Assembly (NCBI RefSeq): GCF_000195635.1
Contig: NZ_GL882625.1
Span: 1-64,000 of the forward strand
Direction of reading: 5' to 3'
DNA: 64,000 nt
Source: Bacteroides fluxus YIT 12057
GTDB lineage: Bacteria > Bacteroidota > Bacteroidia > Bacteroidales > Bacteroidaceae
The position numbers were made by a program, and so were the translations under genes. Position 1 is the stretch's first letter, and the number at the start of each line of letters is the position of its first letter. The notes beneath the pieces are model-generated. The model saw only the letters and a list, made by a program, of their open reading frames with translations. It did not search any database and was not told where the DNA came from. Shown here piece by piece: positions 31,304-36,019 of the stretch.

Positions 31304-34000
31304 TTAAAGCCCGTGTACCGTCTTCATCAGCTGCTCACCCAGACCGATGGTATAACCCTGTGATACAAACACTACCCGGTTAAATGTATCGGCAATGATA
31401 AATATCGGTAAGCTGTCTTTATGCCGTAACTTCATAGCCTCGGCTATTTGTCCGGAAATACCGTCTGTATCTATACCGTAAATAATAGTGGAAGGCAAAT
31501 CCGGGAAAGATTCCTTGACAAATTTCCTGGACTGCGCCTCATTCGGGAAGAGCAATACCATCTTCCGTCCCCATTTCTCCAAATCAGCCTTGAAAGCGGC
31601 GATGTCGCGCAATGCATGGTTGGTGGGTTCCTGGTTGACTCCCAAAATCCCCACTACAAAATACCCGCGGCCACAAGCCTGCAACAAGCTTTCCTTCGAC
31701 GGGACATCCGATGCAGTATCCTCGCGCAGCGGTGTGAAAAGAGACTCGGAATTGAAATTGCCGATCACTTGTACTTCATCCTTGCTTTCGCGCATCACCA
31801 ACTCGATATCGGTCGTTTTTCCCGGAAGCACGTTGAAAGCGGTCACCTTAGAAAGTACCGCACCACTTGCCAGACGGGTCCCGGTTACCAGAACATATTC
31901 CCCGGCGTCCAATGCCGTGCCCTCTTTCAACAAGTTGCTCCATGTGGCTCCGCCACCCATGTCGATATCACCTTCGTCATATGACAACAATTGCAAGTTA
32001 CCTTGCGGAGTGACCTTGGAAATAGTGAAATGGGAATAATACTTCGGATTATCCAGCAATTTGACAGGTGAATAGTTGGCAACAAGCTTACCTTTCAAAG
32101 AAACTCTTTCCTCCAGAAGGACAAGTTCTTCCGGATCAGAGTCCAAGTCCACATCTACCGCACCCTCATCGGTTATCAGCTGGACTTTGCCGGTCACTTC
32201 GTCAATACGTGCAGGGATGCCCATGCTGCGTGCCATGGAAACAAAGAATATATCGCGGCTGTGCGGATCCGCCACACGGGATTTCCATACTCCCTCCGGT
32301 GAAACAGGCGAGCCTCCCAGATTACAGTCCTTATCCACCCTGATATTCTCCGCTACCCAAGTGACCAACTTCATGGGCTGTGCCACATAGGTTTCCATAT
32401 CTTCCTTTGAAACGACCTTCTTGAAGAAAGATTTATACGGCGTCAACATTTCATTGCTTACACGCGGATTGCGGACATATCTGCGGAAATAGTCCGCACC
32501 GGTACGTACATTAGACTGCATATGGTCAACCAGCACTTCCAGACTGACGTCACGAAGATCTTTCGCGGAAATCCGTTGCAGGAGGTCAATGCCCCCTTTC
32601 TTGGACTTTTCAGAGCGCAGGCGGGTCATGAAATCACGGATGGTCCGATGATTGCCACGGGAAGCGACCAGGATTCTTACCGCTGCGTCTACATCCAGCT
32701 TGTACTGTCTTGCAAAAGTACGTGCCGCCTCTTCCGACATGAAAGTGGCAACATACCCGTTGCGGATGGAATCTTCGTAAGCCAGTCTCCTGTCGTTCTC
32801 CTCACGCTGCTCCGGTGTCACTTCGGGAAGGTTGGCGCTCTCTGCGGGAGGCACCACATCAATATCCATGGCAAAGTTATCCCCTTCTTTCCTGTCCAGT
32901 GTCACCGTCAACTCCGGCTGTTTGCCGAAAGAGAGCTTGGCAAAGCCAAAACGTCCATCCTTCGACGCCCACACCAACATGTCTCCTCTCCCTGCAGTCA
33001 GAGTACACATGCCGGAAGCATCAGTCTGCTTGGTGGCCACCGTATAGAATTCCGCATAATTATATAATTTGAACTCCACGCGTGCACCATCTACCGGATT
33101 TCCCTGCCCATCCTTCACTGTAACAGAAGCCTTGGCAGTCGGCGCATAGTTATCAATCACATTGATTTCCGTATAGTTGGGGGTTACGGACATGATTTCC
33201 TCTGCACCCTCATAACGCCCGAACACTTTGGTATGCATCAGCATCCCCCTGCTGGCAGGGGCATTGAACCATCCCAGATCAAGAACCGGTTCGGGTTCGC
33301 AAGCTCCGAGAAAATGCCATTTGCCATCGGCCCAGGCTTCCACCCATGCATGGTTATCGTCCGTATGCGCCCAACGCGGAGTATATACCTGCCGTGCAGG
33401 AATACCTACCGACCGCAAGGCAGCAACCAGCAAGGTGGATTCTTCTCCACAGCGTCCGTACGCAGTGCGTACCGTGGCCAGCGGAGAACTGGTACGGGCA
33501 TCGGAAGGCGTATAGATTGCTTTTTCATGGCACCAATGATTGACTTCCAGGATAGCCTCGTACAGGGAAAGAGATTTCACCCGGTCCTTCAGTTCTTCAT
33601 AGAACACAACCCGTGCGCTATCCAGATTTTCGTTATTCACCCGTGCAGGGAGTACAAAATGCCGGAAAATCTCTTCCGGGACAATCTTTCCCCAAGGCAT
33701 CTCTTTTTCCGCTTTCTGCGCGGCACGTACATTCATCAGATGAAACTCGCCCGGATAATCGGCTATATCGACCAGAGGCATATAAGCATAAAGAAACTCC
33801 AAGGCCTCCTGTTCATAAGTTGACAAGTCCGTATCAAAAATGGAAAACAATTCGCCCTGGGGCAACAAAGCCTTTCTCTGTTGAAAATCTTGTTCCACGC
33901 GTTGACGGTAAGAGGCATCCGTCATAAAGTGGGATTCACCGCAAGCGGTCAAAAGGCATATCAGCCCCAGAAGTCCAAGAAGTCGTGTAGTTCGTCTCAT
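31304..34000 (-). CDS. Large transglutaminase-fold lipoprotein
   Basis: An 898-residue predicted lipoprotein (signal with lipobox CLLTAC, Cys about 20). Residues 130-260 form a transglutaminase/protease-like fold: catalytic Cys in RTAYGRCGEESTLLVAALRSVGIPARQVY, His in DDNHAWVEAWADGKWHFLGACEPEP and a following Asp. Next comes a carboxypeptidase-regulatory-like beta domain (SVTVKDGQGNPVDGARVEFKLYNY near 291), then a helical and second beta-rich part that repeats a weaker transglutaminase-like segment (KSRVADPHSRDIFFVSMARSMGIPARID) and a thioredoxin-like end. Function unknown; surface or periplasmic. Confidence 0.85.
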   Translation of the reverse strand: MRRTTRLLGLLGLICLLTACGESHFMTDASYRQRVEQDFQQRKALLPQGELFSIFDTDLSTYEQEALEFLYAYMPLVDIADYPGEFHLMNVRAAQKAEKEMPWGKIVPEEIFRHFVLPARVNNENLDSARVVFYEELKDRVKSLSLYEAILEVNHWCHEKAIYTPSDARTSSPLATVRTAYGRCGEESTLLVAALRSVGIPARQVYTPRWAHTDDNHAWVEAWADGKWHFLGACEPEPVLDLGWFNAPASRGMLMHTKVFGRYEGAEEIMSVTPNYTEINVIDNYAPTAKASVTVKDGQGNPVDGARVEFKLYNYAEFYTVATKQTDASGMCTLTAGRGDMLVWASKDGRFGFAKLSFGKQPELTVTLDRKEGDNFAMDIDVVPPAESANLPEVTPEQREENDRRLAYEDSIRNGYVATFMSEEAARTFARQYKLDVDAAVRILVASRGNHRTIRDFMTRLRSEKSKKGGIDLLQRISAKDLRDVSLEVLVDHMQSNVRTGADYFRRYVRNPRVSNEMLTPYKSFFKKVVSKEDMETYVAQPMKLVTWVAENIRVDKDCNLGGSPVSPEGVWKSRVADPHSRDIFFVSMARSMGIPARIDEVTGKVQLITDEGAVDVDLDSDPEELVLLEERVSLKGKLVANYSPVKLLDNPKYYSHFTISKVTPQGNLQLLSYDEGDIDMGGGATWSNLLKEGTALDAGEYVLVTGTRLASGAVLSKVTAFNVLPGKTTDIELVMRESKDEVQVIGNFNSESLFTPLREDTASDVPSKESLLQACGRGYFVVGILGVNQEPTNHALRDIAAFKADLEKWGRKMVLLFPNEAQSRKFVKESFPDLPSTIIYGIDTDGISGQIAEAMKLRHKDSLPIFIIADTFNRVVFVSQGYTIGLGEQLMKTVHGL

Positions 34001-34037: not shown

Positions 34038-34194
34038 GGGATTATATTTGAATTCTTATTTCGAATAAAGAAAAAGTGGAGTTTCTGTAACCGTTCTGTA
34101 ATATCTGAATAGCAAAAACAGGGGAATTCACCCCTATAATGGATATTATACGAATATTTTTTATGTTATAGAACATGTTTTCAAGAACAATTCG

Positions 34195-34202
34195 TATCTT
34201 TG
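34195..34202 (+). promoter_or_regulatory. Bacteroides -7 box TATCTTTG
   Basis: TATCTTTG, 76 bp before the small ORF at 34279; clear promoter of a short transcription unit ending at 34480. Confidence 0.65.
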
Positions 34203-34278
34203 CAGTGTTAATAAGAGAAAACAATAAAAGATGTAGAATCCGCTTTCCGAAACGCGGGAAGCAAAAAAAAAGACGATT

Positions 34279-34416
34279 ATGAAAAAGAATGCAAATGAAA
34301 TTTTTATGTTACAGTACCGTATCAAACGCTATCAAGCAATGGGAAACGGAACTATGTGCCAAGCTTTGAATGGCAAACTTCAAAAACTGCTTGCAAAGCA
34401 GTCCATTACCATGTAA
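34279..34416 (+). CDS. 45-residue basic small protein
   Basis: An ATG-to-TAA frame of 45 codons, beginning MKKNANEIFMLQYRIKRYQA and ending LAKQSITM. It is basic (about 9 Lys/Arg to 1 Glu), helical in prediction, with four internal Met and one Cys, and no export signal. It is the only sizeable frame between its own promoter (34195-34202) and a strong terminator (34442-34480), which supports it as a real gene or as a coding sRNA. I do not recognise a family. Confidence 0.6.
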   Translation: MKKNANEIFMLQYRIKRYQAMGNGTMCQALNGKLQKLLAKQSITM

Positions 34417-34441
34417 ACAACACCTTTAAATAAAATGAATG

Positions 34442-34480
34442 AGGGCGGAAAACGATGCAGTTTTCCGCCCTTGTCTTTTT
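34442..34480 (+). terminator. Strong intrinsic terminator
   Basis: 12-bp stem AGGGCGGAAAAC (34442-34453) with GTTTTCCGCCCT (34460-34471), then TTGTCTTTTT. Located 25 bp after the small ORF; could also stop the convergent YccF gene on the minus strand. Confidence 0.85.
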
Positions 34481-34492
34481 AATAGGCACCAC

Positions 34493-34867
34493 TCAAACCG
34501 TCACTATGTCTTTTCCAAAAGGAGTGAGTGCCAAAGCAGCCAATTTAAAATGCTGCATTCCAAAGGGAATGCCGATAATGGTAATGCACAACAGCACTCC
34601 GAATCCCAAATGAGAAAGACTAATCCAAATGCCGCCCAGGAATATCCACAACACATTCATCAATAGATAGAGGCAGCCGCTTGAACGTTCTCCGCTACGC
34701 ACCTCCTTGCCGAAAGGCCACAAGGCAAGTCCTGCCATCTTCATGGTCTGCATGCCGAAAGGAATACCGACAATAGTAATCATCAGCAAAAGACTGGCCA
34801 ACACATACTCAACGGCAGTGAAAATACCGCCGAATACCAACCATAATACATTCATCAAACATCCCAT
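34493..34867 (-). CDS. YccF domain-containing membrane protein
   Basis: A 124-residue inner-membrane protein with two copies of the YccF (DUF307) unit: CLMNVLWLVFGGIFTAVEYVLASLLLMITIVGIPFGMQTMKMA (about 3-46) and LMNVLWIFLGGIWISLSHLGFGVLLCITIIGIPFGMQHFKLA (about 68-110). Each unit has paired membrane segments and an IPFGMQ motif. The ATG at 34867 is chosen; the GTG at 34894 overlaps the promoter. Function unknown. Confidence 0.88.
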   Translation of the reverse strand: MGCLMNVLWLVFGGIFTAVEYVLASLLLMITIVGIPFGMQTMKMAGLALWPFGKEVRSGERSSGCLYLLMNVLWIFLGGIWISLSHLGFGVLLCITIIGIPFGMQHFKLAALALTPFGKDIVTV

Positions 34868-34893
34868 ACGCCCATCTCTTTTAGTTATAAACA

Positions 34894-34901
34894 CAAATAT
34901 A
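34894..34901 (-). promoter_or_regulatory. Bacteroides -7 box TATATTTG (minus strand)
   Basis: Plus-strand CAAATATA, 26 bp before the YccF ATG. Confidence 0.55.
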
Positions 34902-34930: not shown

Positions 34931-36019
34931 TCACCAATCACTGAACTCAAAACTCAGCTGTTCCCATACCCCTCCCTTCTCTTCCCCCTCCTCACGCGGA
35001 TTGGAGACAGACAGCCCGATCAAGCGAATGGGATGTTGCTCATAATCCACTTCATTCAATAATTGTTTTGCCAAAGGCAGAATGACATCCAGGGATATCA
35101 GTTCTCTGGATTGGGTAATGCTACGGGTTATCTGATTAAAGTCATGAAACTTGATTTTCAATGTCAACGTATTCCCCCGGAAGTTTTTATGCTCCAGACG
35201 TCCCACCAGCTCAACCGCAACATGATATAATTCGATGATGACCGAAGAGCGTCTATTTATGTCCCTCTCCAAAGTATGCTCGCACCCGATGGATTTACGG
35301 ATACGCACCGCCTCTACGGGACGCAGGTCAATTCCCCGTGCAAAGTCATGATAAGCAGCCCCTACCTTGCCAAATTCGCGGATCAGCATATCCAAGGAAC
35401 GGGCACGTAACTGTTCTCCGTTATGGATGCCGAGAAGATGCATCTTCTTTGCCGTCACCGGTCCCACTCCCCAAAAACTCTCGATAGGCAACCGGGCTAT
35501 AAACTCCAGGGCCTGGTCGGGATGAATCGTACAGAGTCCGTCGGGCTTGCGGTAATCCGAAGCTATCTTGGCCAGAAACTTATTATAGGACACGCCGGCC
35601 GAAGCAACCAAATTCAACCGTTCTTTTATCTTCTGTTTAAGTTCCTTGGCAATATCCACAGCCAGCGAAATGCCGGGTTTGTTTTCCGTCACATCCAGAA
35701 AAGCCTCATCCAGAGAAAGAGGCTCGACGATATCGGTATATTCATGGAATATTTCATGTATCTGGCGGGAAACGGATTTATACGCTTCCATCCTCCCCGG
35801 AATGAAGATGAGCTGGGGACAGAGGCGCTTTGCTTTCTGCGACGACATGGCTGAACGCACTCCGAAACGACGCGCCTCATAACTGGCCGCAGCCACTACT
35901 CCCCGCTCTTCCGCATGCCCCACGGCAATCGGTTTGCCTCGCAACCCGGGATTATCCCGCTGCTCCACCGAAGCGTAAAACGCATCCATGTCTATGTGAA
36001 TAATCTTTCGTCCGGTCAT
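34931..36019 (-). CDS. dinB: DNA polymerase IV
   Basis: A 362-residue Y-family translesion polymerase. Motifs: IIHIDMDAFYASVEQRDNP at 6-24 (first metal Asp and steric gate Phe-Tyr), GVVAAASYEARRFGVRSAMSS near 39, EPLSLDEAFLDVT near 99 (catalytic Asp-Glu), LKQKIKERLNLVASAGVSYNKFLAKIASDYRKPDGLCTI near 127, and helix-hairpin-helix GVGPVTAKKMHLLGI near 181. The C-terminal little-finger domain follows. It lies 42 bp downstream of the MATE gene on the same strand. Confidence 0.95.
   Translation of the reverse strand: MTGRKIIHIDMDAFYASVEQRDNPGLRGKPIAVGHAEERGVVAAASYEARRFGVRSAMSSQKAKRLCPQLIFIPGRMEAYKSVSRQIHEIFHEYTDIVEPLSLDEAFLDVTENKPGISLAVDIAKELKQKIKERLNLVASAGVSYNKFLAKIASDYRKPDGLCTIHPDQALEFIARLPIESFWGVGPVTAKKMHLLGIHNGEQLRARSLDMLIREFGKVGAAYHDFARGIDLRPVEAVRIRKSIGCEHTLERDINRRSSVIIELYHVAVELVGRLEHKNFRGNTLTLKIKFHDFNQITRSITQSRELISLDVILPLAKQLLNEVDYEQHPIRLIGLSVSNPREEGEEKGGVWEQLSFEFSDW

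Follow-up and report, generated by a model that had tools for sequence, protein, structure and literature searches.

A near-core small-protein gene of Bacteroides with a Cur-type palindrome at its promoter and a covarying leader hairpin

Within the window, the 64,000-nucleotide stretch of Bacteroides fluxus YIT 12057 DNA analysed here, a solitary short gene encodes a basic protein of 45 residues. The comparison of relatives strongly supports that this gene is real, strongly conserved and near-core in the genus. Three features emerged from the alignments: the reading frame is under selection, a palindrome resembling an operator keeps a fixed distance from the -7 box, and a hairpin in the leader covaries. 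Taken together, we consider it quite likely that the gene is a near-core one-gene unit of the regulon of Cur (BT4338), with a structured leader and a small protein related to starvation.

Organization of the unit and its surroundings

The initial annotation had described a self-contained unit with a -7 box, an ATG-to-TAA frame of 45 codons and a strong T-rich terminator, encoding a basic and Met-rich protein. All of these elements were recovered (Table 1), the protein having a pI of 10.2 and 5 methionines among its 45 residues, and the unit indeed stands alone between a divergent and a convergent gene. Two further features, the palindrome and the leader hairpin, were absent from that annotation. 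The terminator appears double-sided, the same hairpin being terminator-like for the convergent yccF on the minus strand as well.

Table 1. Features of the unit and adjacent genes, in window coordinates
Feature	Position	Strand	Basis or remark
Cur/BT4338-type palindrome ATGTTATAGAACAT, consensus core ATGTTnTAnAACAT	34163..34176	+	occupies the -33 position; start 32 bp 5' of the -7 box
-7 promoter element TATCTTTG (TAnnTTTG)	34195..34202	+	pattern in sequence; recurs in homologous copies
Leader hairpin, 8-bp stem GCTTTCCG/CGGGAAGC, loop AAACG	34242..34262	+	covariation
45-codon gene (MKKNANEIFMLQYRIKRYQAMGNGTMCQALNGKLQKLLAKQSITM), ATG to TAA	34279..34416	+	purifying selection; helical hairpin model
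Terminator hairpin, 15-pair stem, T-rich tail	34439..34474	+	terminator scan
Transglutaminase-domain gene, divergent	31304-34000	-	
yccF, convergent	34493-34894	-	
dinB	34931-36019	-	

Three terminator-like sites were found in the 801 bases scanned around the unit, compared with a mean of 0.5 in shuffled sequences. Among 83 homologous copies, 46 have such a site within 150 nt downstream (shuffles: 6 of 415), and the scan detected none in the other 37. An additional terminator-like hairpin on the minus strand (34118-34137) lies upstream of the divergent transglutaminase-domain gene.

The genes that recur in the flanks of the 83 copies are dinB (37), the transglutaminase-domain gene (35), yccF (22) and rny (17). 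Nevertheless, neighbours vary from locus to locus while the small protein is conserved, which argues against a leader reading frame that regulates a downstream gene by attenuation. In B. finegoldii, where a C1 peptidase gene lies 98 bases downstream in the same orientation, such an arrangement is conceivable, but in the window the unit is followed by the convergent yccF, from which a terminator separates it; we regard an attenuator as very improbable.

Coding evidence

The initial annotation had suggested examining conservation and purifying selection in relatives. The frame is conserved, with a median dN/dS of 0.127 over 842 pairs of 80-99% identity. These pairs, which are not independent, were drawn from 82 distinct coding sequences including that of the window, identical ones having been dropped. 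Entropy by codon position was 0.57/0.40/1.13, the third position being the most variable. Neither conservation of the hairpin alone nor frameshifted relatives were encountered: all 83 extracted copies are open over 40-50 codons, in an extraction that could not reveal frames broken into pieces. A stop inside the aligned stretch occurred in 9 of 45 rows of the single-sequence search of the family and in 6 of 97 rows of the profile search of the genus; in the two such rows that were inspected (L008 and L096), it is the end of the protein.

Because purifying selection acts on the frame and the sequence is conserved across genera and families, we take the product to be a real small protein, as the initial annotation had considered. 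Its description as unannotated is wrong for at least two RefSeq records, in which relatives appear as hypothetical proteins: WP_004301914.1 (Bacteroides finegoldii) and WP_005858277.1 (Parabacteroides distasonis).

Distribution among the Bacteroidales

Congeneric genomes matched the DNA from 34140 to 34490 (351 bases), partly or wholly, in 87 of 99 cases, the match in one of them (G274) amounting to 25 bases. A profile of 75 relatives detected the small protein in 90 of the 95 congeneric genomes searched, the search having been set to request genomes with at least 90% completeness. At the family level, a search with the single sequence gave matches at E<=0.1 in 42 of 201 genomes, and the weakest ones may have arisen by chance. 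At the level of the order, 16 of 295 genomes matched at E<=0.01, and 12 of the matches look real: three from the genus and three each from families f60, f105 and f109. Three order-level hits (L159, L161 and L162) appear unrelated and were not counted, nor was L160, which did not match in a pattern search. A record of Parabacteroides distasonis also holds a relative.

The scan of named genomes yielded 120 relatives, from which the best 80 loci, holding the 83 copies, were kept; among these best 80 of 120 loci there was no record named B. thetaiotaomicron. The copies are related by descent, so that counts over them are not independent. The small gene occurs in tandem, as two copies about 450-530 bp apart, in L127, L128 and L141 and in genomes G121, G135, G163, G230, G281 and G599; the upstream copy in L127 and L128 has no -7 box within the usual range.

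Such tandem copies in a few genomes, together with the small size and basic character of the protein, might point to a toxin or a component of a toxin-antitoxin system. The near-core occurrence in the genus and flanks that often carry the same genes weigh against this proposal, and we give it hardly any credence. As to mobile elements, three plasmid and two phage records match. The B. finegoldii "plasmid" was rejected as a mobile element: it carries rny and dinB and looks like a piece of chromosome. The better-matching phage record is without annotation. Literature searches gave no account of such a gene, which may nevertheless be contained in supplementary ChIP-seq or sORF tables.

Palindrome and promoter

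Cur is a Crp-family regulator of carbon limitation that activates fusA2 under this condition, with the consensus wwwTATGTTnTAnAACATAwww (PMC3878776, PMC6989115). The window site agrees exactly in ATGTTnTAnAACAT and in the preceding T, and has G for A after the core. The palindrome count covered the 82 copies whose upstream sequence extends over at least 200 bases and left out L086 (80 bases upstream). The core was exact in 56 of these and had one mismatch in 18 (74 of 82 within one mismatch), compared with no exact core and one with a single mismatch in 1640 dinucleotide shuffles. The reversed pattern was within one mismatch in none of the 82 (best: two mismatches).

The -7 box of the window conforms to the TAnnTTTG of sigma-ABfr promoters, and a box of this kind lies 60-110 bases 5' of the ATG in 78 of the 83 copies. 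A core within one mismatch starts 32-34 bp 5' of it in 71 of these 78. This spacing is kept in all nine copies from families f60, f105 and f109, eight of them with exact cores and one (L157) with one mismatch. The -33 element of the sigma-ABfr promoter is scarce: in the interval of 15-26 bases upstream of the -7 box, TTG occurs in 3 of the 78 copies and TTTG in 1. Given the rarity of this motif and the fixed spacing of the palindrome, the aligned promoters indicate that the palindrome has taken over the -33 place, as expected at an activator-dependent promoter.

Some groups deviate. In the B. xylanisolvens / B. faecis group, one half-site reads AGCAT, and a group of MAGs, several of them from ruminants, shows two to four mismatches in the palindrome. 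Shine-Dalgarno-like AGGAGG sequences, unusual for Bacteroidales, precede the ATG in MAGs L130, L136-L138, L140, L143 and L146 (several from ruminants); five of these seven have the leader loop GTGAGAG, and three have the palindrome ATGCT...AGCAT.

Probable assignment of the palindrome to Cur

The B. fluxus genome contains six exact cores (reversed control: one). One of them precedes a nucleoside permease gene (TIGR00889 above cut-off); nupG is a published Cur target (PMC3878776). A site with one mismatch lies 119 bases before the start of the gene for elongation factor G2 (NF058620 above cut-off). Among the published targets, its orthologue fusA2 is the strongest (PMC6989115). The pattern TAnnTTTG is absent from the 195 bases before the elongation factor gene, so that spacings could not be compared. 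A search of this genome for a 16-base palindrome combined with the -7 box gave no matches, because at the window site the final A of that pattern is replaced by G. Further exact palindromes of the Cur type are found upstream of a gene for a GntR-family regulator (L062, C13:132585) and at three other loci (L061, L063 and L066), the last one near genes which we take to be M23-peptidase-like and RecG-like.

The palindrome could belong to a regulator other than Cur, and the gene would then answer to a different signal. This genome has two Crp-family HTH genes above cut-off, neither of them named Cur. Autoregulation has been proposed for Cur (PMC3878776), and the better-scoring of the two has no site with fewer than three mismatches in its own locus. 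On the other hand, the site fits the published Cur consensus, and similar sites occur at two known Cur targets, the nucleoside permease and elongation factor G2 genes. We therefore consider another regulator rather unlikely. As judged from the site, the small gene is probably activated by Cur and thus probably made when sugar runs out. The overall reading, a near-core gene that is probably under Cur and has a structured leader, gains support from the naming of the two target genes and from the analysis of all 75 leaders described below.

A conserved hairpin in the leader

In the alignment of all 75 leaders, 92.1% of the cells in the stem pair (shuffled mean 80.1), and each of the eight stem pairs has changed on both sides. 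Covariation scored 0.544 versus 0.315, with 0 of 500 shuffles attaining the observed value; when the partner was slid by 1-3 columns, pairing was at most 59.5%. A subset of 53 leaders (the window and 52 of the other 74, the divergent ones being among the 22 left out) gave 96.5% pairing, both-side changes in seven of eight pairs and a score of 0.603. RNAalifold predicted seven of the eight pairs.

Within the subset, the closing pair is G-C in 26 leaders and A-U in 26, and the loop begins with two A residues and ends with G in all 53. In 66 of the 83 copies, six or more unbroken pairs carry an AANNG loop, and five copies have this loop on a broken stem. The remaining 12 have other loops (the ruminant-type group, L085 and both copies of L127 and L128). 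Loops differ also in Parabacteroides, in family f105 and in L152 of family f60, which speaks against a universal loop.

A covariance model (R1), derived from 46 of the 53 leaders, was searched in 31 genomes and gave a match at E<=1 in 19 of them; four of these 19 had a second weak match (E 0.03 or worse). In this genome, where 150 of 2060 first-look candidates were scored, the unit itself was the one match. The hairpin looks like a cis element of the small gene.

The initial annotation had also raised the possibility of a dual-function sRNA. A dual-function or mainly regulatory RNA, with the protein secondary, would be compatible with a transcript that is short, autonomous and strongly folded (z -4.18) and whose leader hairpin covaries. 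However, the frame is under selection, and other families retain the core of the protein. The analysis brought no positive support for a dual function, the conserved hairpin lying in the 5' leader and resembling a cis element, and we judge a dual-function or mainly regulatory RNA to be unlikely.

The protein

The 83 copies measure 40-50 residues, with a net charge of +3 to +10 and a pI of 9.4-11.3. Eight residues are invariant in 75 aligned sequences (L11, Y13, R17, G24, M26, C27, Q28 and L37). The cysteine is replaced by serine or threonine in relatives from another genus of the family (L009, L012) and from Parabacteroides (L164). AlphaFold2, supplied with the 75 sequences, predicted a two-helix hairpin (helices 2-21 and 24-44) with a pLDDT of 86.7 and a pTM of 0.59.

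Database searches were uninformative. Foldseek against the PDB gave no match at E<=0.001, its 46 matches being generic (best E 2.7), and a profile search of PDB sequences gave six hits, most of them designed coiled coils and none better than E 0.64. The window protein matched no Pfam family at E<=1 and no usable NCBIfam family. In a Pfam search with 22 members, HR1 matched one of them at E 0.1 and PF04447 one at E 0.17, neither better than expected by chance. PHROGs offered nothing usable (best E 0.057). At the Rfam gathering score, the sole match in the whole window was a tRNA. The predicted fold and the structure matches assign no function to the small protein; it is likely a basic helical-hairpin adaptor or RNA-binder acting in starvation.

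Proposed mechanism and significance

According to our proposal, Cur would, under carbon limitation, bind the palindrome found in place of the -33 element and activate the promoter. The centre of the site is estimated to lie at about -38 to -41, a position reckoned without a mapped start and resembling that of a class II activator. By the same estimate, the transcript would be about 270 nt long, comprising a structured leader and ending at the intrinsic terminator. Its product would be a basic protein of 40-50 residues, predicted to fold as a two-helix hairpin around a GNG turn. The leader hairpin may control translation or stability of its own mRNA. During the starvation response, the protein, perhaps as a dimer, may serve as an adaptor for a conserved partner, which could be RNA, the ribosome or a protein.

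A more specific idea, which we put forward as speculative and rather doubtful, is that of an RNA-binding microprotein recognizing its own leader hairpin (autoregulation) and, at levels raised by Cur, also other mRNA leaders or the ribosome. The authors of PMC10294740 proposed a Cur-controlled RNA-binding factor for the roc leader, and the small protein could be a factor of this kind.

BT4338/Cur promotes gut colonization via fusA2 and also independently of fusA2 (PMC6989115), so that further Cur effectors should be found. A tiny near-core gene whose Cur-type site is kept over several families of the Bacteroidales would be a plausible ancient effector. The covarying hairpin makes post-transcriptional control of this putative Cur target directly testable, and a gene of this size is easy to delete and tag.

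Comparison with known systems

The fold prediction recalls designed MID1, Rabenosyn, a Rop variant, ClpC and McsA, in which a tight turn likewise connects a pair of antiparallel helices, although the likeness is one of generic shape only (Foldseek E 2.7 or worse).

A short Cur-activated transcript, MasB (BTnc201), has been described in B. thetaiotaomicron (PMC10994844), and the window unit, with its presumed activation by Cur, can be likened to it. MasB is an sRNA, which lends some weight to the regulatory-RNA reading discussed above. However, it is described there as about 100 nt long and narrowly conserved, whereas the window unit encodes a widely conserved protein.

A third parallel, in line with our preferred reading, is the published Cur regulon (fusA2/EF-G2, nupG). 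The window gene shares with these targets a consensus palindrome upstream and presumably activation under carbon limitation. It differs from them in that the target is a small uncharacterized protein and that the site occupies the -33 position, 32-34 bp upstream of a -7 box in 71 of 78 copies.
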